Origin: Pseudomonadota bacterium
Lineage (GTDB): Bacteria > SZUA-182 > DTGQ01
Reading direction: 5' to 3'
Length of the DNA stretch: 64,000 bases
Assembly (NCBI GenBank): GCA_030625085.1
Contig: DAOURK010000007.1
Location: forward strand, 1 to 64,000
Numbering within the stretch: position 1 is the first letter of the stretch; each line of letters starts with the position of its first letter. The notes beneath the pieces are model-generated. The model was not told the DNA's origin and did not search any database. It saw nothing but the letters and a program-made list of their open reading frames with translations. Both the position numbers and the translations under genes were made by a program. Shown one piece after another: positions 12,125-51,493 of this stretch.

Positions 12125-12160
12125 AGGAGTTCACACTATTGAGGAAGGGTTACCTTTTTT

Positions 12161-13378: not shown

Positions 13379-13485
13379 AAATTTGGAGTGATAAGATCTG
13401 TTTAAACAAACCTGCAGGTTGATTTTTTTATATATTAGAAAGAATTTTTTAGCCTATTTTTATTATTAAATTATATTAAGGTTCG

Positions 13486-13529
13486 GGTCTGGGGCTATAC
13501 TGAGATAATAGGTTTTTACCCCTCAGACC
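13486..13529 (+). promoter_or_regulatory. Leader stem-loop upstream of gspG
   Basis: GGTCTG-GGG at 13486-13494 pairs with CCCC-T-CAGACC at 13519-13529, forming a stem with one bulged base about 25 nt before the gspG start. It lacks a T-tract, so it is not a simple terminator. It could protect or process the message so that the major pseudopilin is made in excess. Confidence 0.35.
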
Positions 13530-13553
13530 TTTCAATTTATTAGGGGGTAAGGT

Positions 13554-14006
13554 ATGAAAAAATATCTAAAAACTTTATGTAAATCAAGTGCTCGGGGCTT
13601 TACCTTAATCGAATTGTTAATTGTTATGGTCATTATTGGCCTTTTGTCTGCCTTAGTTGGGCCGAAAATGTTCAGTAAAGTAGGGAAATCAAGGATTCAG
13701 GCAGTGCGGGCTCAAGTTAGTCTATTTGAGACAGCGCTGGATACCTATCGACTGGATAATTATAATTACCCTTCAAGCTTGGAAGCTTTGGTAAGGGATC
13801 CTGGTCTAGAGGGTACTTGGGATGGGCCTTATCTAAAGAAAATCCCCAAAGATCCCTGGGGAAATGGTTATATTTATACGTCTGAGGAAAATAATTCTTT
13901 TGTCATTGTCTCTGCCGGCCAGGATGGGATGGAGGGCACAGAAGATGATATTTCCAATCAAGAAGAAGATACTTATGATACGGGTAATGTTATTCCACCG
14001 GGCTAA
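13554..14006 (+). CDS. gspG: Major pseudopilin GspG
   Basis: Main subunit of the T2SS pseudopilus. The prepilin motif RGFTLIELLIVMVIIGLLSA has the cleavage Gly15 directly before Phe16 and the conserved Glu20 at mature position +5. The C-terminal part has the GspG calcium-site signature DPWGNGY and ends in an acidic tail. The start ATG follows a GGGGGTAAGG ribosome-binding site. It lies 175 bp after gspF, the largest gap in the front half of the operon, with a leader hairpin. Confidence 0.95.
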   Translation: MKKYLKTLCKSSARGFTLIELLIVMVIIGLLSALVGPKMFSKVGKSRIQAVRAQVSLFETALDTYRLDNYNYPSSLEALVRDPGLEGTWDGPYLKKIPKDPWGNGYIYTSEENNSFVIVSAGQDGMEGTEDDISNQEEDTYDTGNVIPPG

Positions 14007-14063
14007 GGGAAAATAACTATTCAGACACTATAGGCTGATTTACAAATCAGGAAAATATATTTT

Positions 14064-14158
14064 AAACCACAAAAACACAAAGAAGATCAAAAACAAAAAG
14101 AAAGGAATTAATTTTTTATGTCCCTATATTTTTTTAACTTTATGTGCCTTTGTGGTTT
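14064..14158. repeat. Palindromic AAACCACAAA...TTTGTGGTTT element
   Basis: AAACCACAAAAACACAAAG at the left end is mirrored by CTTTATGTGCCTTTGTGGTTT-type sequence at the right end, so the 95-bp element can fold into one long hairpin. It sits between gspG and gspH. Half-copies or relatives are at 24751, 31922, 36381 and 58139. Confidence 0.6.
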
Positions 14159-14173
14159 GATATGGGGGCCTGA

Positions 14174-14755
14174 ATGATTACAGACAGAAAGGGGTTTACT
14201 CTAATTGAGGTTATTATTATTGTTGTTATCATGGGTGTGGCTATCGGATTGGCGGTTCCAAGGATCGGGAACTCTGTGGGTAAAATGAGATTGAAATCAG
14301 CCGTGCGCAAATTTTCTGCTGTTTTACGCTATACCCGCCAGATGGCTATTTCCAGGAAAAAAGAATATACAGTAACCATAATATCTAATGTCGATGAAAA
14401 TATATATAAGTATAAATATTTGAAAGTAGAGAGAAAGCAAAATAAAAGAGATTCCTTTTTAGATAATGATGAGGGTGAGGCAACCAAAAAGAAAGGGCCT
14501 AACTTTACAGAAACAAATATCCTGGAGACCCCGAAGGCTATTGATTTGGAAAAAATACAGATTTCCTATCAACAGAAAGATCGGGAAGGAGAATATCTGG
14601 AAGGTGGGGGCGGAGAAATTATTTTTTATCCAAAAGGAGAGTCTACCGGCGGAAGAGTAATTTTTGGCATGGAAGGGGTAAAATTAGCCTTTCAGGTTGA
14701 TATTGACCCTGTTATCGGGAGGGTCAAGGTTAAGAGAAAAGATGAAGAGGAATAA
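14174..14755 (+). CDS. gspH: Minor pseudopilin GspH
   Basis: 193 residues with a type IV prepilin leader (KGFTLIEVIIIVVIMGVAIG, cleavage after Gly8, Glu at +5) and the GspH pattern of a long first helix followed by ...RYTRQMAISRKKEYTV. GspH is a tip-proximal minor pseudopilin. The middle is unusually rich in Lys/Glu. It is separated from gspG by the palindromic repeat and overlaps gspI by 14 bp. Confidence 0.85.
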   Translation: MITDRKGFTLIEVIIIVVIMGVAIGLAVPRIGNSVGKMRLKSAVRKFSAVLRYTRQMAISRKKEYTVTIISNVDENIYKYKYLKVERKQNKRDSFLDNDEGEATKKKGPNFTETNILETPKAIDLEKIQISYQQKDREGEYLEGGGGEIIFYPKGESTGGRVIFGMEGVKLAFQVDIDPVIGRVKVKRKDEEE

Positions 14756-15200
14756 AGATTCTGCCGGATTTACCCTGTTGGAAGTAATGGTGGCCTTGGC
14801 CATTTTATCAGTGGGGTTGGTTTCTTTATTTCAATTATTTTCCGGCTCCTTGCGCTCGGCCAAGGTTTCTGCTGATTATACCAAGGCTGTGATCGGAGCG
14901 CAAAAAAAAATGGATGAAATTTTAGGCTGCTTATATGTAGAAGATTTTGAGAAAATGCATAGGGCCGGAGATTTTGGGACTGAAGAAGGGGAGGATTTGC
15001 TGGAAGGATACCGGTGGGAGGTTACAGATGAGGATTATCCTGTTCCTGAGCTTGAGGAGGAATGGAATGAACATCATCATTCAGAAGAAAAAAAATTTTT
15101 GTTAAAAAAAATTACCATGCGCGTTATGTGGCAAAGCGGAATGAATGACAAGAAATTAGAGCTGGTTACCTTAAAAATGTTGTATAAAAAAAATGAGTGA
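14742..15200 (+). CDS. gspI: Minor pseudopilin GspI
   Basis: 152 residues with the leader DSAGFTLLEVMVALAILSVG and the GspI-type continuation SLFQLF. I place the start at ATG 14742, just before the leader, rather than at longer in-frame starts, because a seven-to-ten-residue basic leader is usual. It overlaps gspH by 14 bp and gspJ by 8 bp, which points to translational coupling. GspI forms the pseudopilus tip complex with GspJ and GspK. Confidence 0.87.
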   Translation: MKRNKDSAGFTLLEVMVALAILSVGLVSLFQLFSGSLRSAKVSADYTKAVIGAQKKMDEILGCLYVEDFEKMHRAGDFGTEEGEDLLEGYRWEVTDEDYPVPELEEEWNEHHHSEEKKFLLKKITMRVMWQSGMNDKKLELVTLKMLYKKNE

Positions 15201-15948
15201 TTTAAAAACACAAAAAGGTTTTACTCTTATTGAAGTATTAATTTCCTTGACCATTCTTTCCCTAATTATGGGAGTGGTTATGGGGGGGTTCCGGTTGGGG
15301 AGCCGATCATGGCGGAAAGGTGAGGAAATGTTGGAGGAACAGCAGCGTATGCGGTGTGTTTTTTCCTTTCTTATTCAAGATATTAAATCGTGTATTTTGC
15401 TCAAAAGACCTGCTGATCCCGAGGCTTCAGGTAGTCAAAGGAATAGGGCTAATCAACCGGTTGTGTTTATAGGGGAAGCCGATAAATTAAAATTTGTTAC
15501 CACTGCTTCCGGTATTGGACCTCAAGTTAAAAAAGGGACACTCCGTGAGGTATCTTATTGCCTTAGTTACGAAGAAGATAAACCGGGGTTGGTAATGGGA
15601 GAGCGTCCCTTGTTATACCAGAATCCCTTTGAGGATGAGGATGTATCTCTGAGTGAAGAATCATTAGGGCCGCCACCTTCTATTTATTCATTGTATCCCG
15701 ATGTTGTTGATATAGTTTTTCAATATTATGGAGTAAAAGAGATTCATAAAAGGCCGACGGAAAGAGATGCGGAGCCCGAATGGCATGATGATTGGAACCG
15801 TTTGGAAGATATACAAAGTGGAGAACATTATCTAAAGAATTTACCTGAAAAAGTTAAAGTAACCCTTCGTCGCAAAAAGTCTGAAGACGATCCGGAAATT
15901 AACACCAGTTTTGAAATTCCTATTGTAGTAGGGGAACGCAAGACATGA
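15193..15948 (+). CDS. gspJ: Minor pseudopilin GspJ
   Basis: 251 residues with leader QKGFTLIEVLISLTILSLIM and the GspJ/PulJ continuation (GSRSWRKGEEMLEEQQRMR). The long beta-rich C-terminal half includes the LPEKVKVTL motif seen near the end of this family. It overlaps gspI by 8 bp and gspK by 4 bp (ATGA). Confidence 0.88.
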   Translation: MSDLKTQKGFTLIEVLISLTILSLIMGVVMGGFRLGSRSWRKGEEMLEEQQRMRCVFSFLIQDIKSCILLKRPADPEASGSQRNRANQPVVFIGEADKLKFVTTASGIGPQVKKGTLREVSYCLSYEEDKPGLVMGERPLLYQNPFEDEDVSLSEESLGPPPSIYSLYPDVVDIVFQYYGVKEIHKRPTERDAEPEWHDDWNRLEDIQSGEHYLKNLPEKVKVTLRRKKSEDDPEINTSFEIPIVVGERKT

Positions 15949-17000
15949 GAAAGACTGAGGAAGGGGTTGCTTTGATGATGGTTTTATGGGTTTTGCTTCT
16001 TTTGAGTTTTATTGCGTTGGAGTTTGCTTATTCCATGCGAACAGAAGTGGAAATTACCAAAAATTATCGTGATGAAATGCAGGCCTATTATATAGCCAGG
16101 GCGGGGGTCGAACTGGGGCGATATGAATTGGCTATATCCGGGAAGGCTAAACCACATTATAAGGATCAAACCAAAAGAATGGTTTTTGGCAAGGGTGAGG
16201 ATGGGAATGCTAAAAACTCTCCAAAATTCAGGGTTTTTAAATTAGGTGAGGGAATATGTGACTATCAATTTGAGGCAGCTAATGTGAAATTTCCTTTAAA
16301 TGATCTGACTAAAAATGTAGACGCTTTGAAAAAATTTTTGGAAAAATACTGTGATCTGGAAGCCTTTTCAGAAGAGATGAGTATGATTGCTTATTCGATT
16401 AAGGATTGGGTCGATGATGATGATCATTATAGTTTGCCTGGAATTGGAGCGGAAGATGATTGGTATGAATCGAATGATCGGGGCTATGAATGCAAAGATG
16501 CTGATTTTGATAGTGTAGATGAATTGAGCCTGATCCGGGGTTTACGAATTGAAAATGGCGACAGTGAAGAAGAAATCGCCCAAAAAAAGAAAATGCTAGC
16601 GAATTTTAAACGATTTTTTGGTGTGAATTCCGGGTTTTCCGGGTCTTTACCAAGCATTTCTAAAAACCCGGATATAATTTTGAATATTGCCAGCAAGGAG
16701 GCTATTCAGGTGGCTTATGATATTGGACTACTCAAGAAATCACCTGATGATGTTGCAGCAAAAAAAGAAGAAAATGGGGGTATCTATAGTGATAAAACCA
16801 GTAATATTATCTATTACTATATAAATTCAACAGCTATTATGAATGCTTCCCCAGTGCATAGAGGAATTAGGGCTTCATTTTTTATGAAGAAAAGAACTGA
16901 TCCAACGTACTGGACACCCCTGTATTGGAATGATAATTATATTCCCGAATATTATGATGATCCGAATCAGGATGAATTGAGCCAAGGTGATCAGGGGTGA
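15945..17000 (+). CDS. gspK: Minor pseudopilin GspK
   Basis: Largest pseudopilin (351 residues) and cap of the pseudopilus tip. The leader EEGVALMMVLWVLLLLSFIA has the family's variant of the cleavage site without the usual Glu+5, as expected for GspK. The segment AYSIKDWVDDDD is the conserved GspK acidic/calcium loop. The gene shares ATGA with the end of gspJ. A 233-bp gap with a palindromic repeat follows before gspL. Confidence 0.9.
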   Translation: MRKTEEGVALMMVLWVLLLLSFIALEFAYSMRTEVEITKNYRDEMQAYYIARAGVELGRYELAISGKAKPHYKDQTKRMVFGKGEDGNAKNSPKFRVFKLGEGICDYQFEAANVKFPLNDLTKNVDALKKFLEKYCDLEAFSEEMSMIAYSIKDWVDDDDHYSLPGIGAEDDWYESNDRGYECKDADFDSVDELSLIRGLRIENGDSEEEIAQKKKMLANFKRFFGVNSGFSGSLPSISKNPDIILNIASKEAIQVAYDIGLLKKSPDDVAAKKEENGGIYSDKTSNIIYYYINSTAIMNASPVHRGIRASFFMKKRTDPTYWTPLYWNDNYIPEYYDDPNQDELSQGDQG

Positions 17001-17076
17001 AGAGTGAGGATGTCGTAAATTTATGACAGGAGCCGCCATTTTTTTTGATGGCTTACCGGCCATTTTAATTTTAGTA

Positions 17077-17138
17077 GACAGGATAAACAGGATTAAACAG
17101 GAAAAAAAGAAAATTTTATAAAATCTGTTAATCCTGTC
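17077..17138. repeat. GACAGGATAAACAGGATT palindromic element
   Basis: The left arm GACAGGATAAACAGGATT is mirrored by AATCTGTTAATCCTGTC on the right. A second copy is at 41650-41714. It sits between gspK and gspL and could form a hairpin in the operon mRNA. Confidence 0.6.
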
Positions 17139-17233
17139 CAATTTATGTATTTAAAGGGTGAGTGAGCGTGGTTTTATTATTGACTGATCATAATAGAATT
17201 TTTGGCGAAAAATAAAGTAAGGGGGCTACCTTT

Positions 17234-18784
17234 TTGCTATATTTACAACAGAGCGTAGGAATCGATTTTCGGGATAATACTCTTCGCATTGTCCATCTGG
17301 GCAGGACTTTTAAAGGTATTGTCCTTATCGATTATTTTATCAATAAATATCCTCATTCACAGAGGGACAAGGGTGGTGGTGAAGATGAGCTTGATTTGAT
17401 GACCCTTGATTTGCGTAATTTTATCCTGGAGAGAGGTATTAAACCGGATCAAATGGTGGTTGGGCTCCCCAGAGAAAAAGTGATCTTGAAAGAGATCATT
17501 ATGCCCAAAGTTGAAGAAAAAGAATTGCGCAATATGTTGAGCTATGAGCTGGCAAAACATATCCCTTTTGCCGTTGAGGATATTGTTTTTGATTATCAAA
17601 TCCTAAGCAAAGAGGAGAATACATTACGAGTTTTTTTAGGGGTTGTTAAACAAGATGAGGTGCAAAAAATTCTCAAATTTTTTGCACCTGGGCAAATGAT
17701 GCCTGCTGTGATGGATGTTACCTCTATTGCTGAGATGAATTGGCTGGTCAGTCAAAATAATCTTGATAAGGATACTTTTACTGCCATAGTAGATATTGGA
17801 GAAGGTACGATAGAATTGGGGGTTTTAGAGGGAAGGGAAATTAAGATGTCTCGCAGTCTCATTCGCAAAGAAAATCATCTTGAAGATGCGTATACTGATG
17901 AGGCCCCTCCCTTGGCTTCTTCAGGGGAAAAGGAGGAAATGGGTGAGGCTCATTTTTCTGAGACTATGAATGATATGGGTGAATCTTTGGGGCAGGATAT
18001 TATCCGAGAACTTACTATTGCAATGAATGCTTTTCCCGAGATCACTGAAGAACGTAAGATTAATGAGTTGGTTTTGACCGGTATAGATGCTTATGATAGT
18101 TTTGTATCCGAATATATTAGCAAAAAATCCGGGACTCAAAGCAGGATAGTAAATCCTTTTAAAAATATCACCGCTGACAATATTCCAGGCAAAATAACCT
18201 CCGGGTTAGCTGTGGCTACAGGATTGGCCATGAGGGGGATGGAAGATCAGCCGCTGATGTTAAATTTTTTATCTGAGGGGAAAAAGACAAGAAGGAAAAA
18301 AAACTATCTGGCCTTTACCATAACCTTTTTAGTCATGGCTATTGTCTTAAGTATGGCCTGGGGTTTGGGCCTGACGTATAAGAATCGTTTGATATCTTTA
18401 GATTTGGCCAGTAATTTTGAGACGTTACAACCTGATGTAAAAGATGTGAAGGAGATGTCTCACGATATTGAAGCCCTCAATAAGGAACTTTCGCTTATTG
18501 AAGAAATTGTTGACACCCAAGTCAGTAAGATAGATCTTTTAAAAGAGTTGACCATTCGTCTCCCGGCGGACACCTATCTTGATATGTTGAAGGTTACTAA
18601 TGAAAAATTGGAGATACGAGGTCAATCTGAATCTCCCTCTGATTTAATCTCTATCCTGGAAGGTTCATTTATGCTTGAGAAAGTTCAATTCGGCTCCAGT
18701 ATAAGGAAAATTAGAAAAGGGAGTAAAGAGCGTTTTACTATTAAAGCGGATATTAAGAGAGTTAAAAACTATGAAGAAGAGTAA
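17234..18784 (+). CDS. gspL: Type II secretion assembly protein GspL (PilM/GspL actin-like)
   Basis: 516 residues. The N-terminal actin-like fold (SVGIDFRDNTLRIVHLG, then IVDIGEGTIELGV near residue 185) links to GspE in the cytoplasm. A single transmembrane helix at about 357-377 is followed by a periplasmic ferredoxin-like domain. This is the GspL layout, equivalent to PilM joined to PilN. The start is TTG at 17234 with AAGGGGG upstream; no ATG fits. It overlaps gspM by 14 bp. Confidence 0.87.
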   Translation: MLYLQQSVGIDFRDNTLRIVHLGRTFKGIVLIDYFINKYPHSQRDKGGGEDELDLMTLDLRNFILERGIKPDQMVVGLPREKVILKEIIMPKVEEKELRNMLSYELAKHIPFAVEDIVFDYQILSKEENTLRVFLGVVKQDEVQKILKFFAPGQMMPAVMDVTSIAEMNWLVSQNNLDKDTFTAIVDIGEGTIELGVLEGREIKMSRSLIRKENHLEDAYTDEAPPLASSGEKEEMGEAHFSETMNDMGESLGQDIIRELTIAMNAFPEITEERKINELVLTGIDAYDSFVSEYISKKSGTQSRIVNPFKNITADNIPGKITSGLAVATGLAMRGMEDQPLMLNFLSEGKKTRRKKNYLAFTITFLVMAIVLSMAWGLGLTYKNRLISLDLASNFETLQPDVKDVKEMSHDIEALNKELSLIEEIVDTQVSKIDLLKELTIRLPADTYLDMLKVTNEKLEIRGQSESPSDLISILEGSFMLEKVQFGSSIRKIRKGSKERFTIKADIKRVKNYEEE

Positions 18785-19334
18785 AGAAAAAGATAAAAAA
18801 TTGGCCATCATTCTTGGGATTATCGCTGGATTATTGGCATTTGTCCTTTGCATTATGGCAGTTTTATCATATAATGGCGACATTAAAGAAAAGATTAAGG
18901 AAAGAAAGCAAAAAATAAAGCATGATATTTCCACGGTAAAAAAAAGAAGCAGTAAAGAAGCCGAACTGGAGTATTTACAACATAAAAGAGCATCCTTTGA
19001 TCAGAGGCTGTTGTTGGGTGAAACCCCGGCGGTGGCTGCTGCAGAATTACAGACAATTTTAAGTGATATGGCCTCTGAATATGACCTTATGATCAGTAGC
19101 CAGAGAATCATTACTCCAAAAGAACACGGTATTTTTTTGGAAGTGCCTGTTCAGATTACTACTCAATGTACGGTGACTAAATTACAGGAATTACTTTATC
19201 AAATTGAAACATATCCAATATTTTTAAGTATTTCCGATCTTAATATTCAAGTTGTTCGGAGGAGTGATCAGAAAGAGGTTAAAGCGACTATTAACATTTC
19301 CGGTGTTATACTAAATAGCAATAATATCTCTTAA
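18771..19334 (+). CDS. gspM: Type II secretion protein GspM (PilO-like)
   Basis: 187 residues: a basic start, one transmembrane helix at about residues 12-34, a coiled-coil stretch (about 40-75), then a small alpha/beta periplasmic domain ending in the pattern TKLQELLYQIE...LSISDLNIQV typical of GspM/PilO. It pairs with GspL in the inner-membrane complex. The start lies inside the end of gspL. Confidence 0.82.
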   Translation: MKKSKEKDKKLAIILGIIAGLLAFVLCIMAVLSYNGDIKEKIKERKQKIKHDISTVKKRSSKEAELEYLQHKRASFDQRLLLGETPAVAAAELQTILSDMASEYDLMISSQRIITPKEHGIFLEVPVQITTQCTVTKLQELLYQIETYPIFLSISDLNIQVVRRSDQKEVKATINISGVILNSNNIS

Positions 19335-19349
19335 AAAGGAGTAATTTTT

Positions 19350-20375
19350 TTGTTCAGACGGATTTTTTGGATCAATCTGGGGCTTTTTGCCATTGTATTT
19401 TTGCTGGGGCTGAATGTCTACAAGACCTGGTTTTCAGTTATCAAGGGAGAATGGAAGGAGCCTGTTTTTGTCTCAGCCGAGAATATTCCGGAGAACGAGG
19501 CCATGTTTGGAGAGGAGAAAGCTTCAAAGTCTGCTCTTTATACTTATGATGTCATTGCTGATAAAAATTTATTTCGTCCTGAAAGAACAGAATGGCTTCC
19601 TCCTCCACCTGATGAGGAAGAATCGAAAAAAAAAGAGAAGTCCAAATCCACCAAAAGCAATCAAAAGGCACTGAAAGAGCCCATTCTTTATGGGATTATG
19701 ATTAGGAGAGATAAGAAAAGCGCTTTAATGAAAGGATCAATCCGGGAAAAAGCCAAAGAACGATTCAGAGAGGTAAGGTTGGGTAATGGGCAAGTTCGTA
19801 AAGTACCTCTCCCCTCCCGGCCGGGAAGGGTCGTGCCTGATAAAGTAAGGACTTATCATGTGGGAGACGAAATTAATGAATCCATAGTGGTTGATATATT
19901 ACAGGACCGGGTTATTTTGAGTAAAAATGATGAAGAATATGAAATACTTTTACGGGAACCTTCGCGCTTGGCCGCTAAAAATGCTCCCGGCCCTGATCAA
20001 GAATCCCCGGATAAAAGGCAGATGGGTCTACAAACTTTTCCTTTCCCCGGCCAATTTCCGAATTTCCCCCAGCCTCCTGGGTATCCTGTTCCGCCCGGTT
20101 TCCCTGCCTATCAACCGCCGCCGCAGCAAGGGCAGAGGCAGGGGCAAAGGCAAGCAGGACAATCCAGGTTTAATTATCTGCCTGGGTCGATACCTGGGGG
20201 GGGAGGGATGTTAGTTCCTCCACAGAGGAGGTTACCACAAAATCCAGGACCGAGGGTTCATACGCCTGGTTCACAAAATCAAACACAGGGGTCTTCGCCC
20301 TATCCAAGTTATTCCGGGCCTAAGTATTTCAATCCTAATTGGCAGGGGCAGAGTCCATTTCCTTTAAATAGATAA
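19350..20375 (+). CDS. gspC: GspC-like inner-membrane linker protein with Pro/Gln-rich tail
   Basis: 341 residues. A transmembrane helix at about 5-23 is followed by the motif DVIADKNLFRPERTEW, characteristic of GspC/PilP-type HR domains, and a beta-rich section (KEPILYGIM...YHVGDEINESIVVDILQDR) to about residue 215. From about residue 225 to the end it is almost entirely Pro, Gln, Gly, Asn and Arg, replacing the PDZ or coiled-coil domain of classical GspC. The start is TTG at 19350 behind AAAGGAG. The protein should connect the inner-membrane platform to the secretin encoded next. Confidence 0.72.
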   Translation: MFRRIFWINLGLFAIVFLLGLNVYKTWFSVIKGEWKEPVFVSAENIPENEAMFGEEKASKSALYTYDVIADKNLFRPERTEWLPPPPDEEESKKKEKSKSTKSNQKALKEPILYGIMIRRDKKSALMKGSIREKAKERFREVRLGNGQVRKVPLPSRPGRVVPDKVRTYHVGDEINESIVVDILQDRVILSKNDEEYEILLREPSRLAAKNAPGPDQESPDKRQMGLQTFPFPGQFPNFPQPPGYPVPPGFPAYQPPPQQGQRQGQRQAGQSRFNYLPGSIPGGGGMLVPPQRRLPQNPGPRVHTPGSQNQTQGSSPYPSYSGPKYFNPNWQGQSPFPLNR

Positions 20376-20453
20376 GGTAAGGTAGTATAAAATGATAATT
20401 ACGGAATTTCGATTACATAATTTATTGTTAGAAAGGACCCGGAGGTTGACTAT

Positions 20454-22514
20454 ATGAAATATTATGTAAGGCTTTTTCTCTTTGTTTTTTTATCCTTTCT
20501 TCTTTTTTCCTGCGCCGCCATCCAGACTATCCGGGGAAAAGACCATAGAGCTATGGAGGATTCTCTGGCTTCCGGCAGAAGGGGGGGGGGCTATAAAATA
20601 AAAGTGGGAAAAATGGAAGAGGGACGACGAAAGCGCCAACCCATTGAAATTGTACCCAAGGAAGAGATTGGCTTAAAAAAGAAAGGGGAGGCTGAAAAGA
20701 GTAACCTGACGGCCGTGGAGGCAACAGAAGATGGAGTAGATACAGTTAAGGTGGAGAAAAATCGTTCTATTTTTAAACCCTATATCCCTCCTGAAAAACA
20801 GACTAGATTGGTAGAAGCTTTACCTGATGAGATGCCGGCAGGAGTTAAGGAGCAAATAATTTCTTCAGGAGAATTTAGCCCTGAAGAATACGTAACCTTG
20901 AATTTTGAGCAGGCCCCTATTGATGAGATTATTAATACTGTAAGTGAAACTCTTGGTATGAACTATATTTTGGCCCCGGGCGTTAAAGGCCAGATTACTA
21001 TGCAAACCTCCAAGCCGGTTCCCATAAGTGAGCTTTTTCAGATATTACAATCTGTTTTGCAAGTTAACGGTTTTACTTTGGTCTTATCGGGTCGTTATTT
21101 TAAAGTAGTTCAGGCCAAAGAGGCTATACGATACCCTATCGAAGTTATGGCAGGAAAGGGAGATGGAGAGCTTCCCCAGGAAGATACCTATATAACTCAG
21201 ATTATTTCTTTGGATTACATTCCCGTAAAAGAGATGCTTAATGTATTAAAACCCTTTTTATCTAAATCAGCTCCTCAGCCTATTCAGCACGCAGAATTGA
21301 ATCTATTGATTTTGAATGATACTGCTGCTAATATGATAAGGCTTTTAAAATTTGTTCAGGAGCTTGATAAACCATTATATCAACCTAAAGAAAAAGTTTT
21401 TGTATATTATGTAGAGAACGGTGATTCCAAGAATTTGGCTAAGGTTTTAAATGATATTTATAAAAAAGGTACGAAAAAGAAGGATGATAAGAGGAAATTT
21501 CCCATACCTCAGGCTCCCCCTGGAATTCCTCCACAGGCAATGAGACCGCCTTTTTTGCCCCCTTTTTTTGCTACCGGTGAGGAAGTAGAGGGCGAGGTGA
21601 CTATTGTGGCGGCAGAAGATATTAATGCCCTTATTATTACCACGTCCCCAAGAAATTATCCGGCTGTTTTAGAAATTATTAAAAAGCTGGATATCCAACC
21701 AAGGCAGGTTTTGGTCGAGGTCTTAGTAGCGGAAATCACTATTGATGACCTGACAGATTTTGGTCTTGATTGGAGGTTTCAAGGCACTGCGTCAGGAGGA
21801 ACATCATATAATTTGAATCAAACTCTTGGAGGAACACCCGAGGGCGCACTGAGTAATGGTATGGATACATTTAAATCAGGCTTTAATTATATGATCTTTA
21901 AACAAAATAGATTTCTCACTCTTTTAAACGCGAAGGCTAAGGCAAGTAAATTGGATGTTCTTTCAAGCCCTCATATTATCGCCTCTGATAACCAGGAAGC
22001 TGAGATTAAAATTACTCGACAGGTTCCTATTCGTAAATCAACTGTGATTAATCAGCAAATAAGCTTTGATACTGAATATAAGGATGCAGGAATTACCTTG
22101 ACCTTTACTCCCAAAATTAATGAGAAGGGATTGGTTTCCTTAAAACTAAGCCAAAAAGTGAGCCTATGGGAAGGGTCCACAGACGCTGGTGACCCCATTT
22201 TTAGTGAACGTTCAGCAAGCACTACGGTTGTTGTCCATGATGGAGAAACTTTAATTATAGGTGGGTTGGTAAAAGAGGAGAGAACCAAAACAAGAGAAGG
22301 TATTCCCTTCCTGAAGGATATCCCTTTAATAGGAAATTTATTCTCCCGCTCTGGGGATTCATTTCTAAAGACTGAGTTGATTATATTAATTACCCCCCAT
22401 GTGATTAAAAATAAGACTGAGGGAAACGAACTCACAACGAAATTTCAAAATCGGGTTCGAGTTCTTCAAAATCGAATTAAGAAAATTAAACCATCAACTA
22501 GAAATACTCGATAA
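20454..22514 (+). CDS. gspD: Type II secretion outer-membrane secretin GspD
   Basis: 686 residues. The signal peptide ends in a lipobox-like LLFSC (Cys20), so the secretin may be lipidated and pilot-independent. Periplasmic N0-N3 domains follow (N0 at about 145-215 with TLNFEQAPIDEIINTVSE; N1-N3 to about 430 with a Pro-rich N2/N3 insert near 355-375). The secretin core has VEVLVAEITIDDLTDFG and ends with the signature GLVKEERTKTREGIPFLKD. The gene stops 17 bp from convergent ruvB, with no terminator hairpin between them. Confidence 0.95.
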   Translation: MKYYVRLFLFVFLSFLLFSCAAIQTIRGKDHRAMEDSLASGRRGGGYKIKVGKMEEGRRKRQPIEIVPKEEIGLKKKGEAEKSNLTAVEATEDGVDTVKVEKNRSIFKPYIPPEKQTRLVEALPDEMPAGVKEQIISSGEFSPEEYVTLNFEQAPIDEIINTVSETLGMNYILAPGVKGQITMQTSKPVPISELFQILQSVLQVNGFTLVLSGRYFKVVQAKEAIRYPIEVMAGKGDGELPQEDTYITQIISLDYIPVKEMLNVLKPFLSKSAPQPIQHAELNLLILNDTAANMIRLLKFVQELDKPLYQPKEKVFVYYVENGDSKNLAKVLNDIYKKGTKKKDDKRKFPIPQAPPGIPPQAMRPPFLPPFFATGEEVEGEVTIVAAEDINALIITTSPRNYPAVLEIIKKLDIQPRQVLVEVLVAEITIDDLTDFGLDWRFQGTASGGTSYNLNQTLGGTPEGALSNGMDTFKSGFNYMIFKQNRFLTLLNAKAKASKLDVLSSPHIIASDNQEAEIKITRQVPIRKSTVINQQISFDTEYKDAGITLTFTPKINEKGLVSLKLSQKVSLWEGSTDAGDPIFSERSASTTVVVHDGETLIIGGLVKEERTKTREGIPFLKDIPLIGNLFSRSGDSFLKTELIILITPHVIKNKTEGNELTTKFQNRVRVLQNRIKKIKPSTRNTR

Positions 22515-41714: not shown

Positions 41715-41744
41715 TGATTTAAAAAAGTAATAATGTAATGAGGT

Positions 41745-42116: not shown

Positions 42117-42579
42117 AGAGAAAAGGTTAACGTCCCTCCCCGGCTTATAAAATAAACGCTCATGAACGAGTTGTTCACCCCAGAAGATGAAAATTTTGAC
42201 TTTTTCAGTAAAGTCTATTTTTCGAAATGCGTTTTCATGGTAAAAAGTTAAAAATAAAATATGACGTAAAAGTTAGCTGTTAATTTGCTGATAATGCTGA
42301 TTGGCAAACCTTCGAAGAAATTTTTCCGACAACATTTTTTGTCCTCAGTTTTGTTCCCCACCTCATATTGCCGGGATCTAATTAATTCTATTGATTTTAT
42401 AAAGAAAAAAATAGTATACTATAGTACATTGAACTCTTTTTTTGTTTCTTGAGCTTGCATAATTAAAGTTCAAATGTATACTTTATACTATTGGGGTAGA
42501 ATAAAAATAAACAGTAAAAAAATCTAAAAGAAAATCGTCATATTATCCACTTTGAATGATAATAATTTAGGAGAGAGAG
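42117..42579. other. Intergenic region before the exported-protein cluster
   Basis: 463 bp. It holds the 85-bp repeat at 42157-42241. The rest is AT-rich spacer with no recognised gene or RNA. Confidence 0.55.
42157..42241 (+). repeat. 85-bp dispersed repeat, copy 2
   Basis: Inverted counterpart of 31835-31919 over its whole length, with ends CACTCATGAA/CGCTCATGAA and TTTTCATGGT shared. It contains GACTTTTTCAGTAAAGTC, a stem-loop. Confidence 0.7.
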
Positions 42580-44766
42580 ATGAAGGGTAAATCTATATAT
42601 TTTTTTTATATCTTTTCTACTATTTTTTTGGGGCTAATTTTCCTTATCCATTTAGGCGGATCAAATAGTTGGGCTCAAGCCCCTCCTCCCCCTACCATAT
42701 GTGAAGACAAATGCTTGCCTGAAATAAATGAAGATCCTAATACCCCTACTGTTGTTAATGCTTTAGAAAAGATTATAATTTATTTTATTTCTTTTGATTG
42801 TCGGATGAACTCAATTAAGACCAAAGAGGCTTTTCATCTATATGCAGGGGAGGATGAGATTAATGATCTAGATGAATATTTATCTTTTTCAGATTATGTT
42901 CTGGACCATATATTAATGGGCTCCATATTGACTTTCACCCCTCATTCTCCTTTTGAAGAAGGAATTGTTTACAAAGTTGAAATAGAATCAACTGCTGAGA
43001 ACAACGATGGGGTCCAGTTTGATGGTGATGGTGATGGTACAGCCGGGGAGGACCCGGAAGATAATTGGGTGATGAAATTCATTATTGATGCAAATTCTCC
43101 TGAAACTGGTTGGAGCCAGGTATATGACCCGGAAAACATTTTTACTGAAAATAAAGTAAGCAGTATGATAGTAGATAATCAAGACCGGTTATGGGTTACC
43201 TCAGAAGAGGGTGATGTTTGTTATTTTGATGGAAACGATTGGAATTGTGAAAAGCCCTTTTGGGATTCTGATTATGTTGATGATATCCCCTGTATGACCA
43301 CTGATAATGAAGGGTGCTTATGGCTTGGTTTTAATGTCCTTGAAAGTAATTTTCTTACACCCAAGTTAGCCAAATTAGTAAATAATAGCTGGGAGGTAAA
43401 AGATTTAGATCAGATCCCATCTGATGAGTCTATTAGGGATATTGCTGTTGATTCGGAAAATAATATCTGGATTATTGCTAGTAACGATATTTATAAATAT
43501 GATGGGGAGTTACATTATTGTCCTCCAGGGGGTGAAGATAAACCTGTTAGCACATTTATCACATCGTTAGTAATAGATCCGGATGATAATCTATGGGTTA
43601 GAACAGTAACTTCTGAGATCTGGAAGGCTGAAGGTGGTTGGTGGGGTGATGAATATACCGCTAGATGTAATTATCAAATTAATGATATTAATGACATGGC
43701 GGTAGATTCCGCGGGTAATATTTGGATTGGCACAGATAATGGACTCCTTAAATTAGATCCAAGTAGCCAGGACCCAAATTGGCCTAAATATACAATTGAT
43801 GATGGACTTCCAGGTGATTCTATTAACGCTTTAAGCATTGATCCGAATAATAACCTTATCTGGGTTGGTACCTCAGATGGATTAGGGAAATTTGATATCG
43901 CCACTGAGTCTGGTATAGCTTACACTGACCAAACATCGGGTAAAGCAATTAATCACCTGGTTTTAAATTCTCGGGGCGAGGTTTGGTTCAATACTAATCA
44001 GGGGATACAGATGCTAGATAAAATACCTCCCTATGTCTTGAAAAATGAGAGTGTACCAAAAAATAACACTAATATAAATATATTGCAAGATATTCAAATT
44101 GTCTTTAGCGAACCTATGAAGCGTGACTTAACTGAAAGCGCTTTTACCATGGTTGAGGTTGAAGATGGGCAGGAAGATCTGGAAATAGAAGGGGCATTTT
44201 CTTGGCCCAACTCTAAAACTTTGATATTTGATCCAAACGCTATAATTGAAAATCATTCTTACAAGGTTGTGATAGATACAAATGCTATAGATCTACTCGG
44301 TAATTCTCTTAATGAATTATACAGCGTGGTTTTTTCTACCGGTGAGCAGGAACTTCCTTATATCACCAATAAAAGCTGTTCTCTGACACAGTTAGTTTTT
44401 TATGTTAATGATGATGGTGTGGTGGTTGATCCAAATTCGATCGAGGTCCGGGTCGACAATATAGATGTGACTGGGGATGAGGGGTTTCAGATCGAAGGGG
44501 CTAATAATAGTTACCAAGTTACTTATTCTCCAGATAATTTGTTCCCAGAGAATGAAGAGATTACAGTAACCATTACGGTGAAAGATTTGAACGGAAATCC
44601 ATTACCAGATCATGAATTTCAAATTACTCCTCAAGAGCCTGGTACAGAGCATAGTGCTGAAAGCCCTATTGATTTAAGCGGCAGCGGATGTTTTCTTGAT
44701 ACCTTGCAAAATAGGACAAAGAAAAATAGGACAAAAGTCTGGTTTCAGCAGCTTTTGGAATTTTAA
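42580..44766 (+). CDS. Large exported protein: Ig-like domains plus regulator-type beta-propeller, C-terminal anchor out of frame
   Basis: 728 residues. A signal peptide is clear (hydrophobic core about 8-25, ending SNSWAQA). The order is: an SbsA-type Ig-like domain (about 50-165); six or so propeller repeats of the two-component-regulator type (DNQDRLWV, DSENNIWI, DSAGNIWIGTDNGLL, about 180-480); a second Ig-like domain (IVFSEPMKRDLTESAF, about 485-590); and a third weaker domain. Near the C-terminus GSGCFLDT resembles GCFTDS in the next gene. In this frame the protein ends KVWFQQLLEF. If one A is removed at 44733-44736 the frame runs to 44815 and ends with a hydrophobic segment (KLFIPVFLLLAWL). 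The true protein is therefore probably anchored and the gene carries a 1-nt insertion or a sequence error. It could be a type II secretion substrate. Confidence 0.75.
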   Translation: MKGKSIYFFYIFSTIFLGLIFLIHLGGSNSWAQAPPPPTICEDKCLPEINEDPNTPTVVNALEKIIIYFISFDCRMNSIKTKEAFHLYAGEDEINDLDEYLSFSDYVLDHILMGSILTFTPHSPFEEGIVYKVEIESTAENNDGVQFDGDGDGTAGEDPEDNWVMKFIIDANSPETGWSQVYDPENIFTENKVSSMIVDNQDRLWVTSEEGDVCYFDGNDWNCEKPFWDSDYVDDIPCMTTDNEGCLWLGFNVLESNFLTPKLAKLVNNSWEVKDLDQIPSDESIRDIAVDSENNIWIIASNDIYKYDGELHYCPPGGEDKPVSTFITSLVIDPDDNLWVRTVTSEIWKAEGGWWGDEYTARCNYQINDINDMAVDSAGNIWIGTDNGLLKLDPSSQDPNWPKYTIDDGLPGDSINALSIDPNNNLIWVGTSDGLGKFDIATESGIAYTDQTSGKAINHLVLNSRGEVWFNTNQGIQMLDKIPPYVLKNESVPKNNTNINILQDIQIVFSEPMKRDLTESAFTMVEVEDGQEDLEIEGAFSWPNSKTLIFDPNAIIENHSYKVVIDTNAIDLLGNSLNELYSVVFSTGEQELPYITNKSCSLTQLVFYVNDDGVVVDPNSIEVRVDNIDVTGDEGFQIEGANNSYQVTYSPDNLFPENEEITVTITVKDLNGNPLPDHEFQITPQEPGTEHSAESPIDLSGSGCFLDTLQNRTKKNRTKVWFQQLLEF
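44708..44737 (+). repeat. 15-bp tandem duplication with one extra A
   Basis: AAAATAGGACAAAG is present twice in a row (44708-44721 and 44723-44737). The second copy has AAAA where the first has AAA. The extra A marks the place where the reading frame leaves the putative membrane anchor. Confidence 0.75.
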
Positions 44767-44837
44767 GGAGATTAAACTATTTATTCCTGTTTTTTTATTG
44801 CTTGCTTGGTTATAAAAGAATTTGAATTAAGAACATG

Positions 44838-44880
44838 AAACGAGGTTGGGTTTTCATTGAGGAGGCTCTGCCTCGTTTTT
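44838..44880 (+). terminator. Rho-independent terminator
   Basis: AAACGAGG pairs with CCTCGTTT across a loop that has its own small AGGCTCTGCCT stem, followed by a T-run. It lies about 70 bp after the exported-protein gene. Confidence 0.6.
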
Positions 44881-45014
44881 ATTACCCAAAATTATTGTAT
44901 TCCGGCAGATGAAATTGAAATATAAAAGAAATTTTCATCTTTTTATATGGCTTCCCGGCCAATCGCTTTGTCAGTCTAGCGGAGGTAGTAGATCTAATTT
45001 GAAGGTACTAATAC

Positions 45015-48000
45015 ATGAGTAAGCCAAAGTATACGTGGTTTTTTTTGCTGAGTATGATGATTTTTCTTTTAGCCTCTACTTTTTCTGCCGTTGCTAAAAC
45101 ATCAGACCCCTTGGAAATTTCTACTGGCAATGATTTACAAGTTTATCCTTCTGCAGTATGGAATTCTGAGCGCGGTGAATACTTTACTGTTTGGTATGAT
45201 GGATATGCTGATTCTAATAGTGCAGGTATTTATGGAATGCATATTGACCCTAATGGGACAAAGGGAGATCCATTCCAAATTGTTTCCATTATAGATACCC
45301 AAGATAGAACTCACTCTCCACAAATCGCTTATGATACAGGCAAAGACCAATATCTTATTACATGGCATGATGAAACAGGTGATAGCCTGTCAATAGATAT
45401 TTGTGCTGCCTTGGTGTCCTTTGATGGAAATGAAGTGCAAATAAAAATTCTCAATATTCCCAAGGTAGAACAAAGGCAGTCACACCCGAAGGTCGCCTGG
45501 AATGGCGAGCAGTTTCTCATTGTCTGGTATGATTTTCGAAATGGTGCATTTAATCCGACAGATTTGAAGGATGCGGATATCTATGGGATTCGTCTTGATC
45601 CCAATGGTAATGTCCTTGACCCTAACAGCCTGGCAATTTGTACTGATGATTCAGGCCAGGTTGATCCGGTAGTGGCGGGATATTCTGCTGAGGGAGAAAA
45701 AGGTTGGCTGGTCAGTTGGGTGGATGAGAGAAATACCTCTTCAGACAGAGACATTTATGCGGCCATTGTTAACCAGAATGGGGATTTGGTAAAGCAAAGT
45801 TTTCCTGTTTGTAATGCTGAAAAGGATCAGGAGAATGTTCGGCTAGCTGTTGGCCCTTCCGGCTTTTTCATGGTTTGGCATGATGAAAGATTAAAAGGCA
45901 CACAGGGTCAAGAGGGAAATACCTTGGGGAATTATTTAATTGGGGCTCGTCTGTCTTGGGATGGGGATATCTTGACTGATGCTCAAAATAGCACTGTGAT
46001 TCCAATTGCCACGGTTGAATCGGGGATATTTGTTCCAAGTATTGCTTATTTTCACAATAGTTTTTTAGTCACCTGGCATGATGATAGTAAAATTAAAGGA
46101 GCAAGGGTCTCCTGGGAGGGGTATATTTTTTTTGGTAGTATTGATGAAGCTACCGGAGAGAGAAAGCCTTTTATCTTAAGTGATCCGAACACGGTATCTA
46201 CTAATTCTGCTGTTGCTGTTACCTATTCATCAACTGGTGATTATAATCCTGATGAGAAGGTGTTAATCACTTGGCAGGTTAATGATGATAATACATCGCA
46301 GGACATTTGGGGAGCTTTGTATACGCCGCCCAAACCACCTTTTTTGCAGTGGGTTGGCGAAGGTGATTTTACAGAGGAGGGGGTCCACCCGGAATCCGGT
46401 AAGGGGGGAGATGAATTTACCTTTAAAGTGAAGTATAAGAAATCTGAGGAAGGTAGTAGTACGCCGCTGGGTAGTAATGTATGGATAGATCGTAATCGCA
46501 ATGGAAAGCTTGAAATGGATGAGATTTTTCAAATGGAAGCTGACGAGGATGATAGCTCGATCTATCAAACAGAAGTACCGATCTTGTATGAGTATGATGG
46601 GGACCCGAATGATCCGGATAAAGATAAGGTTTTCTATCAATTTCTTTTTCAAGATGAATTTAATATGGCCATAGGAGATCCGAATGCTGAGGGAGATCCT
46701 GCTGGTGAAAATAGTATAACGCTCACAAAGAAAGGGGCTGTACCTCAACTTTCCTGGGTGGGGACAGGGGGCTATATCCAAGATGGCCTTGATCCAGGCA
46801 GGGTGGAGGTCGATACGAACAATACGTTTATTTTTAAAGTACATTATCGTGATTCAGATAGTGATGAACCTAAAATTTATCAGGTGTGGATTGATATTAA
46901 TCGTGATAATAGCTTTGAAGGGATATGGACTGATGATGACTATGATGGTATAAGAGATGAAAACGAAATAATCTTAAATGAAAAATTTGATATGAAAGAG
47001 GAAAGCAGTGGTGATTATTCTGCGGGCATCACCTATAGTTTTGAAAAGGATCTAACAGTGAATCAGATAGGGCCGCTGGGCTATCGTTTTTACTTTGATG
47101 ACGGGGCGAATGTGGCCCGGGGAGAGCCGAAAAATATTCGCTATCTGATTATTACCAGTACCTCTGAAGATTGTATTCACAGTGGTTTTAAGCCCCAAAT
47201 GAAACCGGACATTGCTTTAACTGATCAGGGAGGCATGATTGTATGGCAAGATCTCCGGAATGGGGAACTTGCAGATCCAAATGTGCCCCAAATTCAACCA
47301 GATTCCAAACCTCAATGGTTTTATCAAGGTTCTGAGATTTATGGGCTTTTGTTAGATCCTGAAAATGGGGCTCCAGCAACTGAAAATGGTGGAGAAATTC
47401 AGATAGGCACGACAAATAAAAATCAATTTAATCCCAGGATAGCCGGTTTTGGCAATAGATTTTTAGTGGTCTGGGAAGATTTGAGAGATGGAGAGATAAA
47501 AACAACAGGCAAAATCACAGGTTCAGGCTATGAGAATAAGGATATATATGGTCAGATTATTGATATAAAAGATCCCAATAACCGAACTGAGGATTTTTCT
47601 ATTGCCAGGTATACCGCTGATGATCCTTCTTATATGGATCAAAGTAATCCTGCTGTGGCAACAAGTGGAGACAATAGATTTTTAGTGGTTTGGGACGATG
47701 GTATAGGTGGTAGTAGTTATGGGAAAAGTATTTATGGGACCATAGTATCATACGATCCAAATGCCGGCCAAAAAGTGCATCATGACGTGGATGGATACGG
47801 ACTTGAAAGCTGTATTATACGTAATACCAAAGATCACAAGAAGCCTGCAGTGGCCTGGGCGAATAACGCCCGAAGGTATCTGGTGGTTTGGCAGGATTCC
47901 GGGACAAGCCGCCTTTACGCTAACTCCCTTGATCCTAACGGCCAGGTAATGGGGGGGGTTAATATTCGAGAAAGCAGGATCGAGGATGAAGACTATAACA

Positions 48001-50774
48001 GGGAGCATGGTAATCCCATTTGCATTGATTATCAAACTGATATGTATTCTCCTGCTATGGCCTCTGATGGAGACAGATTTTTGATTGTTTGGGAGCATGA
48101 GGTAGAGGGGCTCCTTAATGACAAAGATATTTATGGTATTTTTGTAAACCCTAACAGCATAGTATTATCTACAGACCAAAATGATATAATATCTACAGAT
48201 CCTAATGGTAGACCATATGAAGTAAAGAACAAAGACTTATTAGGGGATGCCAAAATTCCTATCTGTACTGCTGAAGGAGATCAGACCAACCCGCGCGTCC
48301 ACTGGGATAAGGCAACGGGGAATTATTTTGTGGCTTGGACATCTCAGCCATTGTATAAGGATGCTCTAGGTGAATACGAGCCGGGATCTGATACTGATAT
48401 CCGGGGAGTATGGCTGAATGCAAATGGGCAATTAATTGGAAGGAAATCTGAAGATAGCGGCTGGGAAATATGTGCAGTGCACGGAATTCAGGCAGAGCCG
48501 GTTATTTCAGGCAATGGCAACATAAAACGCGCAGTCTGGACGGATGAGCGCAATAGTGGTTTTCCCCGTTCCTCCTCTATTGTTGGTGTTTTTGACGGAT
48601 TATCTTCAGATATCTATAGCAGTCCCCTTAAATCGTTTTTGCAAACCTTGGATGATGAAGATTTTTCAACCGGTATCAATCCCACAATTGGAGGTAATGG
48701 CACAGACTATACCTTTAAAGTAAATTATCGGGGTATTGCCGAAGATCCTAATGGTCATTATGAGGACCCTAATGTTTGTGAAGTATGGGTTGATTTAGAT
48801 GGGGACGGCAAGTATGATTCCGGAGAAAGGTATACGATGGCTGCAGATCCTAATGATACGAATTTAGAAGATGGACAAATATATGTTACAGAAGTGTCCC
48901 TTACTCTTCCTGATGATTATACTGTAACTAATTGGCCGATCATGATAGGATATCGGTTTTATTTTGAAGATAAAGAGGGTTTTTCGTCTATTGGGAGTGC
49001 TAATATACTAAAAACATTCCAAATGAATCCTCCATTGTTATCCTGGACTTGGGAGAATAATTATCACAACGGTGGAGTATCCCCTTCAAGGGGCCCAAAA
49101 GATACCAGGTTTAAATTTCGCGTTCGTTATCGATATGTTCCTTCGGACTCTGATGAAGCAACTTCCCTCCCTGATGTCGACCTTTGGATAGATTTTAATC
49201 AAGACGGTAAGTATGAATCTGAAGATAATGAAATGTTTCGTCTTAGACCAGAGTGTGATGGTAATTGTAATTACGCTGAGGGGGAAATATTTTATTATAC
49301 TTTAGAAGGGTGGCATAGAGAAGGCGATTACAATTATAGATTTTATTCCCAACATATTGAAGGTGGGATTGGTGTTGGAGAGCCTACAAAAGATCACCAG
49401 TTTACTATTTATGATCCAAGCGAAAAAGGCTGGACAACCTATACTACAGCCGATGGTTTAGCCAGTAATCGCATTCAATGTTTGCTGGCTCAAGGAAATA
49501 CTCTTTGGGTAGGTACAGATGCAGGTTTGAATAGGTTCAGGAATGAATCCTGGGAGACCATTACTCCTGAAAATGAGAGCGGATTGGCGAGTTATAATAT
49601 AGTAGATATGGTTTTGGATTCTACTTCGGATGTGCTTTATGTAGGAACTAGTGCAGGCCTGAGTACTTATAATGGCTCTTCTTGGAAACTTTATGGTAAG
49701 GAAGATACAGAAGAAGTATTTGAAGAAGGGTATATAAGTATTGGGAACTTGGCTTCTAATAAACAGGCAATTTGGATGATTGTTCAACGGACATCAGAGG
49801 AATATTTTGAGGCTATAGACACGCAAACTGACATTGATCCTAATATGATTGAGATTTCTTTAGTCTGCCATGACATTTCAAACAACTCATGGACTAAATA
49901 TACTAAAGAGAATACTTCTTCCCATGAAGGCGGGGGACTTCCCAGCGAATACATTGGGGATTTATCTGTTGATGATAATGGTGATGTCTGGGTTTCTACT
50001 GTGCTTATCACCTATTCAGGAGATGATGAAACAGAATTTGATCCTAATTTAGTTAGCTCTGAATATAAAGGTCTTTCACGGTTTAAGCCGGATGAGAAAA
50101 AATGGACCCATTATACTACTGCTAATGGGAATAGTATTTTAAAGACGAATCACCTTAATAAAATTATTGCTGATAAAAATGGGGACCTTTGGGTTGGAGG
50201 GACACCTACAGTGGGGGGAGCCGCATCAGATGGGGGATTATATCAATTTGATATCGGAAATGAAGAATGGGTGGAACATTTTTATAAAGGGCAATCAGGA
50301 GTAAACCTTGGCAGTAATTACATATACGCGCTGTGTGCAGATGATCCTGGTCTGTGGATTGGCACGGTTCCTATTACTGAAGATGGTACCGATGGGGGCG
50401 CCAGTTTCTATGATGGAAGCTCTTGGGGGGATTTATTTACCATTGACAGTACGGGTGATGGTTTGGTAAGTAATGCTATTACCGCTATAGCTGTTCAAAA
50501 CTCCAATAAGGGTGATGAGGTTTGGTTTGGAACACCCTATGGATTAAGTCGCTATGGGTATGGAGCACAGTATACCCCTGCGGATCCGAATACAGTTTTT
50601 CGCTTTCCCGATCGGGGTTGTTTTACTGATAGTTTCAGCAATATGGTCAATCAGAAATCTATACTGAATCATAATCCATTGGGATTTTGGTGGATAGTTT
50701 TGATAATGGGTTTTTTATGTTTGGGAATCGGATTTTTCTCTATAGTAAGGAGATATTTATGGGTAAGAAGGTAG
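45015..50774 (+). CDS. Giant exported protein with repeat modules, EF-hand-like loops, propeller and C-terminal anchor
   Basis: 1919 residues. Signal peptide at about 1-28 (core FFLLSMMIFLLAS, end AVAKT). Residues about 30-440 and 725-1200 repeat a module of the form VAWNGEQFLIVWYD...DIYG...LDPNG, probably beta-propeller blades. Four copies of another module (about 445-565, 579-715, 1204-1335, 1342-1465) carry calcium-loop-like DLDGDGKYDSGE or DRNRNGKLEMDE. Residues about 1472-1860 are regulator-type propeller blades (NTLWVGTDAGLNRF). The C-terminus has GCFTDSF at about 1866, a hydrophobic helix at about 1889-1908 and a basic end RRYLWVRR, the layout of a C-terminal sorting signal. Asp-Pro-Asn is strikingly frequent. 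Probably a cell-surface protein; function unknown. Confidence 0.75.
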   Translation: MSKPKYTWFFLLSMMIFLLASTFSAVAKTSDPLEISTGNDLQVYPSAVWNSERGEYFTVWYDGYADSNSAGIYGMHIDPNGTKGDPFQIVSIIDTQDRTHSPQIAYDTGKDQYLITWHDETGDSLSIDICAALVSFDGNEVQIKILNIPKVEQRQSHPKVAWNGEQFLIVWYDFRNGAFNPTDLKDADIYGIRLDPNGNVLDPNSLAICTDDSGQVDPVVAGYSAEGEKGWLVSWVDERNTSSDRDIYAAIVNQNGDLVKQSFPVCNAEKDQENVRLAVGPSGFFMVWHDERLKGTQGQEGNTLGNYLIGARLSWDGDILTDAQNSTVIPIATVESGIFVPSIAYFHNSFLVTWHDDSKIKGARVSWEGYIFFGSIDEATGERKPFILSDPNTVSTNSAVAVTYSSTGDYNPDEKVLITWQVNDDNTSQDIWGALYTPPKPPFLQWVGEGDFTEEGVHPESGKGGDEFTFKVKYKKSEEGSSTPLGSNVWIDRNRNGKLEMDEIFQMEADEDDSSIYQTEVPILYEYDGDPNDPDKDKVFYQFLFQDEFNMAIGDPNAEGDPAGENSITLTKKGAVPQLSWVGTGGYIQDGLDPGRVEVDTNNTFIFKVHYRDSDSDEPKIYQVWIDINRDNSFEGIWTDDDYDGIRDENEIILNEKFDMKEESSGDYSAGITYSFEKDLTVNQIGPLGYRFYFDDGANVARGEPKNIRYLIITSTSEDCIHSGFKPQMKPDIALTDQGGMIVWQDLRNGELADPNVPQIQPDSKPQWFYQGSEIYGLLLDPENGAPATENGGEIQIGTTNKNQFNPRIAGFGNRFLVVWEDLRDGEIKTTGKITGSGYENKDIYGQIIDIKDPNNRTEDFSIARYTADDPSYMDQSNPAVATSGDNRFLVVWDDGIGGSSYGKSIYGTIVSYDPNAGQKVHHDVDGYGLESCIIRNTKDHKKPAVAWANNARRYLVVWQDSGTSRLYANSLDPNGQVMGGVNIRESRIEDEDYNREHGNPICIDYQTDMYSPAMASDGDRFLIVWEHEVEGLLNDKDIYGIFVNPNSIVLSTDQNDIISTDPNGRPYEVKNKDLLGDAKIPICTAEGDQTNPRVHWDKATGNYFVAWTSQPLYKDALGEYEPGSDTDIRGVWLNANGQLIGRKSEDSGWEICAVHGIQAEPVISGNGNIKRAVWTDERNSGFPRSSSIVGVFDGLSSDIYSSPLKSFLQTLDDEDFSTGINPTIGGNGTDYTFKVNYRGIAEDPNGHYEDPNVCEVWVDLDGDGKYDSGERYTMAADPNDTNLEDGQIYVTEVSLTLPDDYTVTNWPIMIGYRFYFEDKEGFSSIGSANILKTFQMNPPLLSWTWENNYHNGGVSPSRGPKDTRFKFRVRYRYVPSDSDEATSLPDVDLWIDFNQDGKYESEDNEMFRLRPECDGNCNYAEGEIFYYTLEGWHREGDYNYRFYSQHIEGGIGVGEPTKDHQFTIYDPSEKGWTTYTTADGLASNRIQCLLAQGNTLWVGTDAGLNRFRNESWETITPENESGLASYNIVDMVLDSTSDVLYVGTSAGLSTYNGSSWKLYGKEDTEEVFEEGYISIGNLASNKQAIWMIVQRTSEEYFEAIDTQTDIDPNMIEISLVCHDISNNSWTKYTKENTSSHEGGGLPSEYIGDLSVDDNGDVWVSTVLITYSGDDETEFDPNLVSSEYKGLSRFKPDEKKWTHYTTANGNSILKTNHLNKIIADKNGDLWVGGTPTVGGAASDGGLYQFDIGNEEWVEHFYKGQSGVNLGSNYIYALCADDPGLWIGTVPITEDGTDGGASFYDGSSWGDLFTIDSTGDGLVSNAITAIAVQNSNKGDEVWFGTPYGLSRYGYGAQYTPADPNTVFRFPDRGCFTDSFSNMVNQKSILNHNPLGFWWIVLIMGFLCLGIGFFSIVRRYLWVRR

Positions 50775-51409: not shown

Positions 51410-51458
51410 GATTAACCTTAAAAGATAAAAGATATTTTTTGGTTTGGATGTTTTATAT

Positions 51459-51480: not shown

Positions 51481-51493
51481 GTATGACTAAGAG

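Follow-up and report, generated by a model that had tools for sequence, protein, structure and literature searches.

What sorts two large exported proteins that are encoded side by side and end in a similar cysteine motif, and is the signal a new one? The question is raised by a 64,000-nucleotide stretch of DNA (the window), in which the original prediction had proposed a new C-terminal sorting signal: a GCF(L/T)D motif followed at 20-25 residues by a hydrophobic helix. The two open reading frames, called A and B here, are adjacent on the + strand, both have signal-peptide-like N-termini, and the motif is indeed common to them, as GCFLDTL in A and GCFTDSF in B (Table 1). We have compared their own genome (G000) with four relatives of the same order (G001-G004) and with further genomes of the same class (G005-G008); the genome-wide profile search covered G000-G004 and 89 other genomes.

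Table 1. Features of the locus, numbered from the first letter of the window
Feature	Position	Strand	Remarks
Type II secretion gene cluster	10394..22514	+	GspE, GspF, GspM-b and GspD identified; possible exporter, with a putative link to A and B
Protein A, 728 aa	42580..44766	+	Reg_prop beta-propeller and Big_5 Ig-like domain behind a signal peptide; tail with a CFI box and no membrane helix
CFI box of A, GCFLDTL	44686..44706 (remaining tail to 44763)	+	11.8 bits with the leave-out profile; below the NF041763 cut-off
Protein B, 1919 aa	45015..50774	+	Repeats, GEVED and Reg_prop beta-propeller behind a signal peptide; tail with a divergent CFI box, a membrane helix and a basic end
Divergent CFI box of B, GCFTDSF	50616..50636	+	Cys1869-Phe1870 invariant in five orthologues
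Predicted membrane helix of B, residues 1889-1911	50679..50747	+	Conserved in B orthologues
Ribosome-binding site AAGGAG and ATG of gene C	50747..50761	+	Within the codons for the Arg-Arg-Tyr end of B
Gene C, 216 aa	50759..51409	+	Predicted OmpA-type 8-strand outer-membrane beta-barrel, Phe last; overlaps the end of B

The tails of proteins A and B

Protein A ends in SGSGCFLDTLQNRTKKNRTKVWFQQLLEF. The 24 residues that follow its Cys are polar and basic, with a maximum 15-residue Kyte-Doolittle mean of -0.96, and there is no in-frame hydrophobic helix after the box; hydrophobic runs occur only in other reading frames. A frameshift or otherwise broken tail that masks a helix was considered and rejected, because the orthologues of A in G001, G002 and G003 are equally helix-free. 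The C-terminal ends of the A relatives are SGSGCFIDSVSHKPWSWLRRVVELLWS (G003), SGSGCFINSVMRHQSSASSWLRRLWEFIQHLRVYLA (G001), GDGCFINSLER (G004) and GGGCFVGSLRESGRNRFQRLIPYLINIKK (G002); none has a helix, and the tails of the orthologues are polar and basic like that of A itself. The tail of A also contains an in-frame near-duplication of 15 bases (44709-44738; AATAGGACAAA), which is translated as NRTKKNRTK. Finally, a close paralogue of A elsewhere in its own genome (G000:C103) is 55% identical over 51-434, and its terminus has no box; the tag is therefore a separable module.

The tail of B, DRGCFTDSFSNMVNQKSILNHNPLGFWWIVLIMGFLCLGIGFFSIVRRYLWVRR, does contain the predicted helix, which begins 20 residues past the Cys and reaches a maximum 15-residue Kyte-Doolittle mean of 2.71; the AlphaFold model of B places a helix at residues 1888-1918. 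The boxes of the B relatives read CFISSL, CFISAL, CFADSF and CFVEHL, with a helix after each, and relatives of A and B again lie side by side in G001, G003 and G004. Thus, the helix foreseen for both proteins is found in B and is missing from A. As a protein query, the tail of B returned nothing convincing beyond B itself. The likeness of A and B to PorZ (E 1e-9 to 1e-11) could have implied a link with type IX secretion; we rejected this, as the scores are far below the cut-off and reflect the Reg_prop propeller repeats.

Gene C and the arginine end of protein B

The last residues of B, VRRYLWVRR, are as strongly basic as the original prediction had stated, but they can hardly serve as a CTERM hallmark. 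In three of the five orthologues (own genome, G002 and G003) the ribosome-binding site and ATG of gene C double as the codons of B from Val-Arg-Arg-Tyr onward. In G001 the overlap of B and C is arranged otherwise and the Arg pair is missing at that place, while in G004 the two genes do not overlap and Arg-Arg is kept through other codons. The Arg end of B is consequently in part a by-product of the gene overlap, and argues only weakly for a CTERM signal. A more general caution follows, namely that where genes overlap, the ribosome-binding site of the second can impose a basic tail on the product of the first.

Gene C itself is kept beside B in G001-G004. Its predicted barrel is closest to those of OmpA, NspA and OmpW, an MXAN_2562-like match being below the cut-off. 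In G001 (L201, 8905-15231), B and the barrel gene C form a single open frame uninterrupted by a stop, inside which C keeps its own start and signal peptide; this reflects a natural fusion or else a misassembly. In the window, the surface genes A, B and C are inserted (37484-51985) after a housekeeping run of ffh, trmD, an RNA methyltransferase and a YraN-like gene, and ahead of moaC; much of this gene order is shared with G001 and G003.

A modular tag expanded in one lineage

A corrected pattern together with a profile of 26 tails yielded a catalogue of 45 distinct tails in G000-G004, a count that is a lower bound. The consensus is G-C-F-I-x-[ST]-[LI], for which A and B both have G-C-F-x-D-[ST]-[LF]. 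Cys-Phe is fixed across the 45 tails partly by construction of the search; 38 of them have I in the next position, 40 have S or T two places later and 36 continue with L or I, and Gly precedes the Cys in 32. The Asp that the original prediction had included in its motif (position +3 after Cys) is present in just 4 of the 45 tails and is therefore not diagnostic. Nor does the helix define the tag: 40 of the 45 tails have none and extend for 6-33 residues after the Cys (6-69 over the whole catalogue), some being so short (6-10 residues) that they end at the box. Gly-Cys-Phe-x-Asp plus helix is a layout special to B and its orthologues; in its own genome, where the GCFxD pattern has 34 matches versus 9 for its reversal, B is the only protein that combines it with a helix. 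Outside the order, the box-plus-helix form also occurs in deltaproteobacterial propeller or NTTRR-like proteins (L208, 8130-9635; L222, 3885-5981), which have CFITAAA or CFIVTSA and then a helix.

The charge of the sequence switches at the box. The linkers ahead of it contain 40 K/R and 113 D/E, and the ends after it 82 K/R and 21 D/E, with 17% aromatic residues. After removal of the tails the carriers, most of which have a detected signal peptide, form at least 12 unrelated clusters; among the carriers are repeat proteins of PKD and Ig-like type, a BamB-like propeller, and proteins resembling thermolysin and a deacetylase. Between orthologues the box is 69% identical, versus 37% for the linker ahead of it.

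The cleaner of two measures of enrichment is the genome-wide profile search, which gave 17, 14, 11, 14 and 12 matches in G000-G004. The other 89 genomes gave 0-6, mostly tiny non-gene frames with few at E < 0.01, which is the chance level; G005-G008, although of the same class, are also at that level. A test on 663 ORFs points the same way: the last 60 residues contain CF[ILVMTA]x[STA] 26 times and its reversal once, and the density of the motif there is about 12-fold greater than in the protein bodies, with no such enrichment of the reversal, figures that are inflated because part of the loci were retrieved using the motif itself. There is little doubt, then, that the tag is real: it is modular, expanded throughout the lineage, conserved and usually helix-free.

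Relationship to named sorting motifs

The box corresponds to a family already named in NCBIfam, NF041763 (CFI-box putative sorting motif; model length 14 positions, curated cut-off 15.9 bits), which has the same box, the same terminal position and the same Gly-rich approach. It is matched at E<=1 by 30 of the 45 tails, several of them above the cut-off, among which are the own-genome tails at C75, C150 and C97. What the name of the family implies, exported proteins from unrelated families with the box at their very C-terminus, also holds for the tails in our catalogue. We found no study of the CFI box in a search of the open literature.

Proteins A and B themselves are below the cut-off, and the B family differs in adding a membrane helix after the box. 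A has no match at 15.9 bits and its orthologues score 10.9 (G003) and 13.1 bits (G001); B likewise has none, while its G003 orthologue passes with 18.0. A profile of 36 tails, from which all A and B relatives had been left out, gave A 11.8 bits, so A is recognized independently of the A and B families. The same profile gave the B of the window only 1.9 bits, and A or B relatives elsewhere up to 19.8 (the G003 orthologue of B); B's box is therefore assigned via its orthologues, and not from its own sequence. Judged by these comparisons, the tails of A and B are divergent instances of NF041763, a motif abundant in this lineage. The original prediction had named a match to a defined CTERM family as grounds against novelty, and such a match is largely what we find, with the qualification that A and B fall short of the threshold. 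Its two examples did reveal a real feature, but the properties chosen to define that feature were the wrong ones.

It had also likened the tails to the Cys-containing CTERM signals without being able to name one. The comparison is sound inasmuch as this is a Cys-containing C-terminal tag on exported proteins. None of the MYXO-, JDVT- or Synerg-CTERM models matches either tail; it is NF041763 that covers the box. MYXO-CTERM (TIGR03901), the substrate of myxosortase MrtX and a precedent for Cys-dependent sorting with a type II secretion system (PMC11980579), shares an invariant Cys in a Gly-containing motif and the presence of that system. Its layout of Cys motif, helix and Arg-rich end is reproduced in form by B, but not by A or by 40 of the 45 tails. 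JDVT-CTERM (with MrtJ) and Synerg-CTERM (with MrtS) are comparable in having a Cys-containing tag and CPBP proteases in the genome; the scores of the latter are nevertheless far below the MrtJ (75) and MrtS (130) cut-offs. GlyGly-CTERM (TIGR03902) has a similar Gly-rich approach and its system uses type II secretion, but no tail matches its model. Rhomboids are found everywhere, and there is no rhombosortase in the own genome, where the rhomboid scores 39 versus a cut-off of 84.

How might the tag be handled?

Our tentative preference, held at a little less than even confidence, is that A and B, both of them large exported beta-propeller proteins, have divergent CFI boxes that act, after Sec and type II secretion, as a Cys-dependent tag for surface retention, the Cys being modified. 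The signal would consist of a Gly/Ser/Asp-rich linker, the box G-C-F-I-x-[ST]-[LI] and a short basic, aromatic end. After export by Sec and passage of the outer membrane via the type II system (which, as originally predicted, is encoded in the window), the exposed Cys-Phe box would be recognized beyond the outer membrane. Its cysteine would then be modified, probably by lipid attachment if the analogy with MYXO-CTERM (PMC11980579) applies, and the modified protein would stay on the cell surface. Unlike MYXO-CTERM, most members would require no membrane helix; the extra helix of B would first anchor it in the inner membrane. This reading is supported by the properties of the tag described above, namely its unrelated and mostly signal-peptide-bearing carriers, its enrichment in G000-G004, its matches to NF041763, the conservation of the box, the box-less paralogue of A, the charge switch and the recognition of A by the leave-out profile. 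Further support comes from the MYXO-CTERM precedent, from the presence of the type II secretion system and from the outer-membrane barrel gene that overlaps the end of B. It is weakened by the failure to find a dedicated enzyme (sortase PF04203 is missing from all nine genomes, the own genome has one Lgt, and neither a rhombosortase nor an Mrt equivalog was found), by the lack in most tails of a helix by which a membrane enzyme might find the box, by a box in B too divergent to be recognized without its orthologues, and by the lack of any common neighbour of unrelated tagged genes, where recurrence is confined to orthologous contexts and to the local housekeeping operon. With respect to Lgt, none was seen in the fragmented assembly of G002, and G003 alone among the nine genomes has a second, weak and longer Lgt-like protein (G003:C25:3213-3938, L314; 29.5 bits, an open frame of 361 aa).

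Alternatively, the tail might be left unprocessed, as an export signal or a docking peptide made up of a hydrophobic box and a basic, aromatic end, with the Cys in a disulfide or packed against a partner. The tails that end at the box would fit such a role, as would the lack of an enzyme. On the other hand, an invariant lone Cys resembles the tags in which the Cys is modified, and carriers as varied as these point to an enzyme of general use more than to a single partner, so we consider this rather unlikely.

A third possibility is a CAAX-like or myxosortase-like substrate, in which a CPBP intramembrane protease of this order cleaves after a lipidated Cys, for which MrtX and Rce1 are precedents. 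CAAX-type proteases and exosortases were among the enzymes that the original prediction had suggested looking for, together with rhombosortase, and both do occur in the own genome. CPBP proteases number 3, 3, 2, 4 and 3 in G000-G004, that is, in all five tagged genomes, and 0, 0 and 1 in G005-G007, two of these three untagged genomes of the same class thus having none; co-occurrence within a single order is nevertheless not independent evidence. One type corresponds to TIGR03008, and in G002 (C282; L165/L300) its gene abuts, in convergent orientation, one whose product ends in SSCFIMSLP. However, TIGR03008 was not seen in G001 despite its many tags, none of the CPBP proteins scanned is an Mrt equivalog, and the known Mrt substrates have the helix that most CFI tails lack. 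Taken together, this makes cleavage by a CPBP protease distinctly improbable.

Handling by the exosortases of this genome is very improbable. Both of its full exosortases lie in polysaccharide clusters, within about 6-8 kb of a CFI-box gene (C194/L181 and C41/L182), but the boxes have neither a PEP-type motif nor a helix, and no tagged gene is near the exosortase loci examined in G001, G003 and G004, the G001 locus carrying ordinary PEP-CTERM-like tails instead. Moreover, convincing tags are missing from G005 despite its three exosortases. The new CTERM family originally envisaged, with GCFxD, helix and basic end cut by a sortase-like enzyme of its own, would account for the Cys-Phe, the helix and the mostly Arg end of B and its orthologues; given the helix-free majority, the variable Asp, the want of a further such protein in the genome and the existence of NF041763, it is refuted as stated, and we accord it almost no likelihood. 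Least probable of all is a chance resemblance between the tails of A and B, which the score of B's box by itself would allow and which lineage-wide enrichment, conservation between orthologues and the independent recognition of A oppose: chance is excluded for the tag in general, if not fully for the copy in B alone.

Implications

The CFI box can be tested cleanly in a lineage that has a dozen or so mostly helix-free tags per genome. It is possible, though on the doubtful side, that the box defines a helix-independent, Cys-dependent pathway of surface sorting, served by an enzyme outside the sortase, exosortase, rhombosortase and myxosortase families, with B as an intermediate that has a MYXO-like helix. 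If the box were shown to work without a helix, Cys-based sorting would be distinct from the three-part CTERM design.
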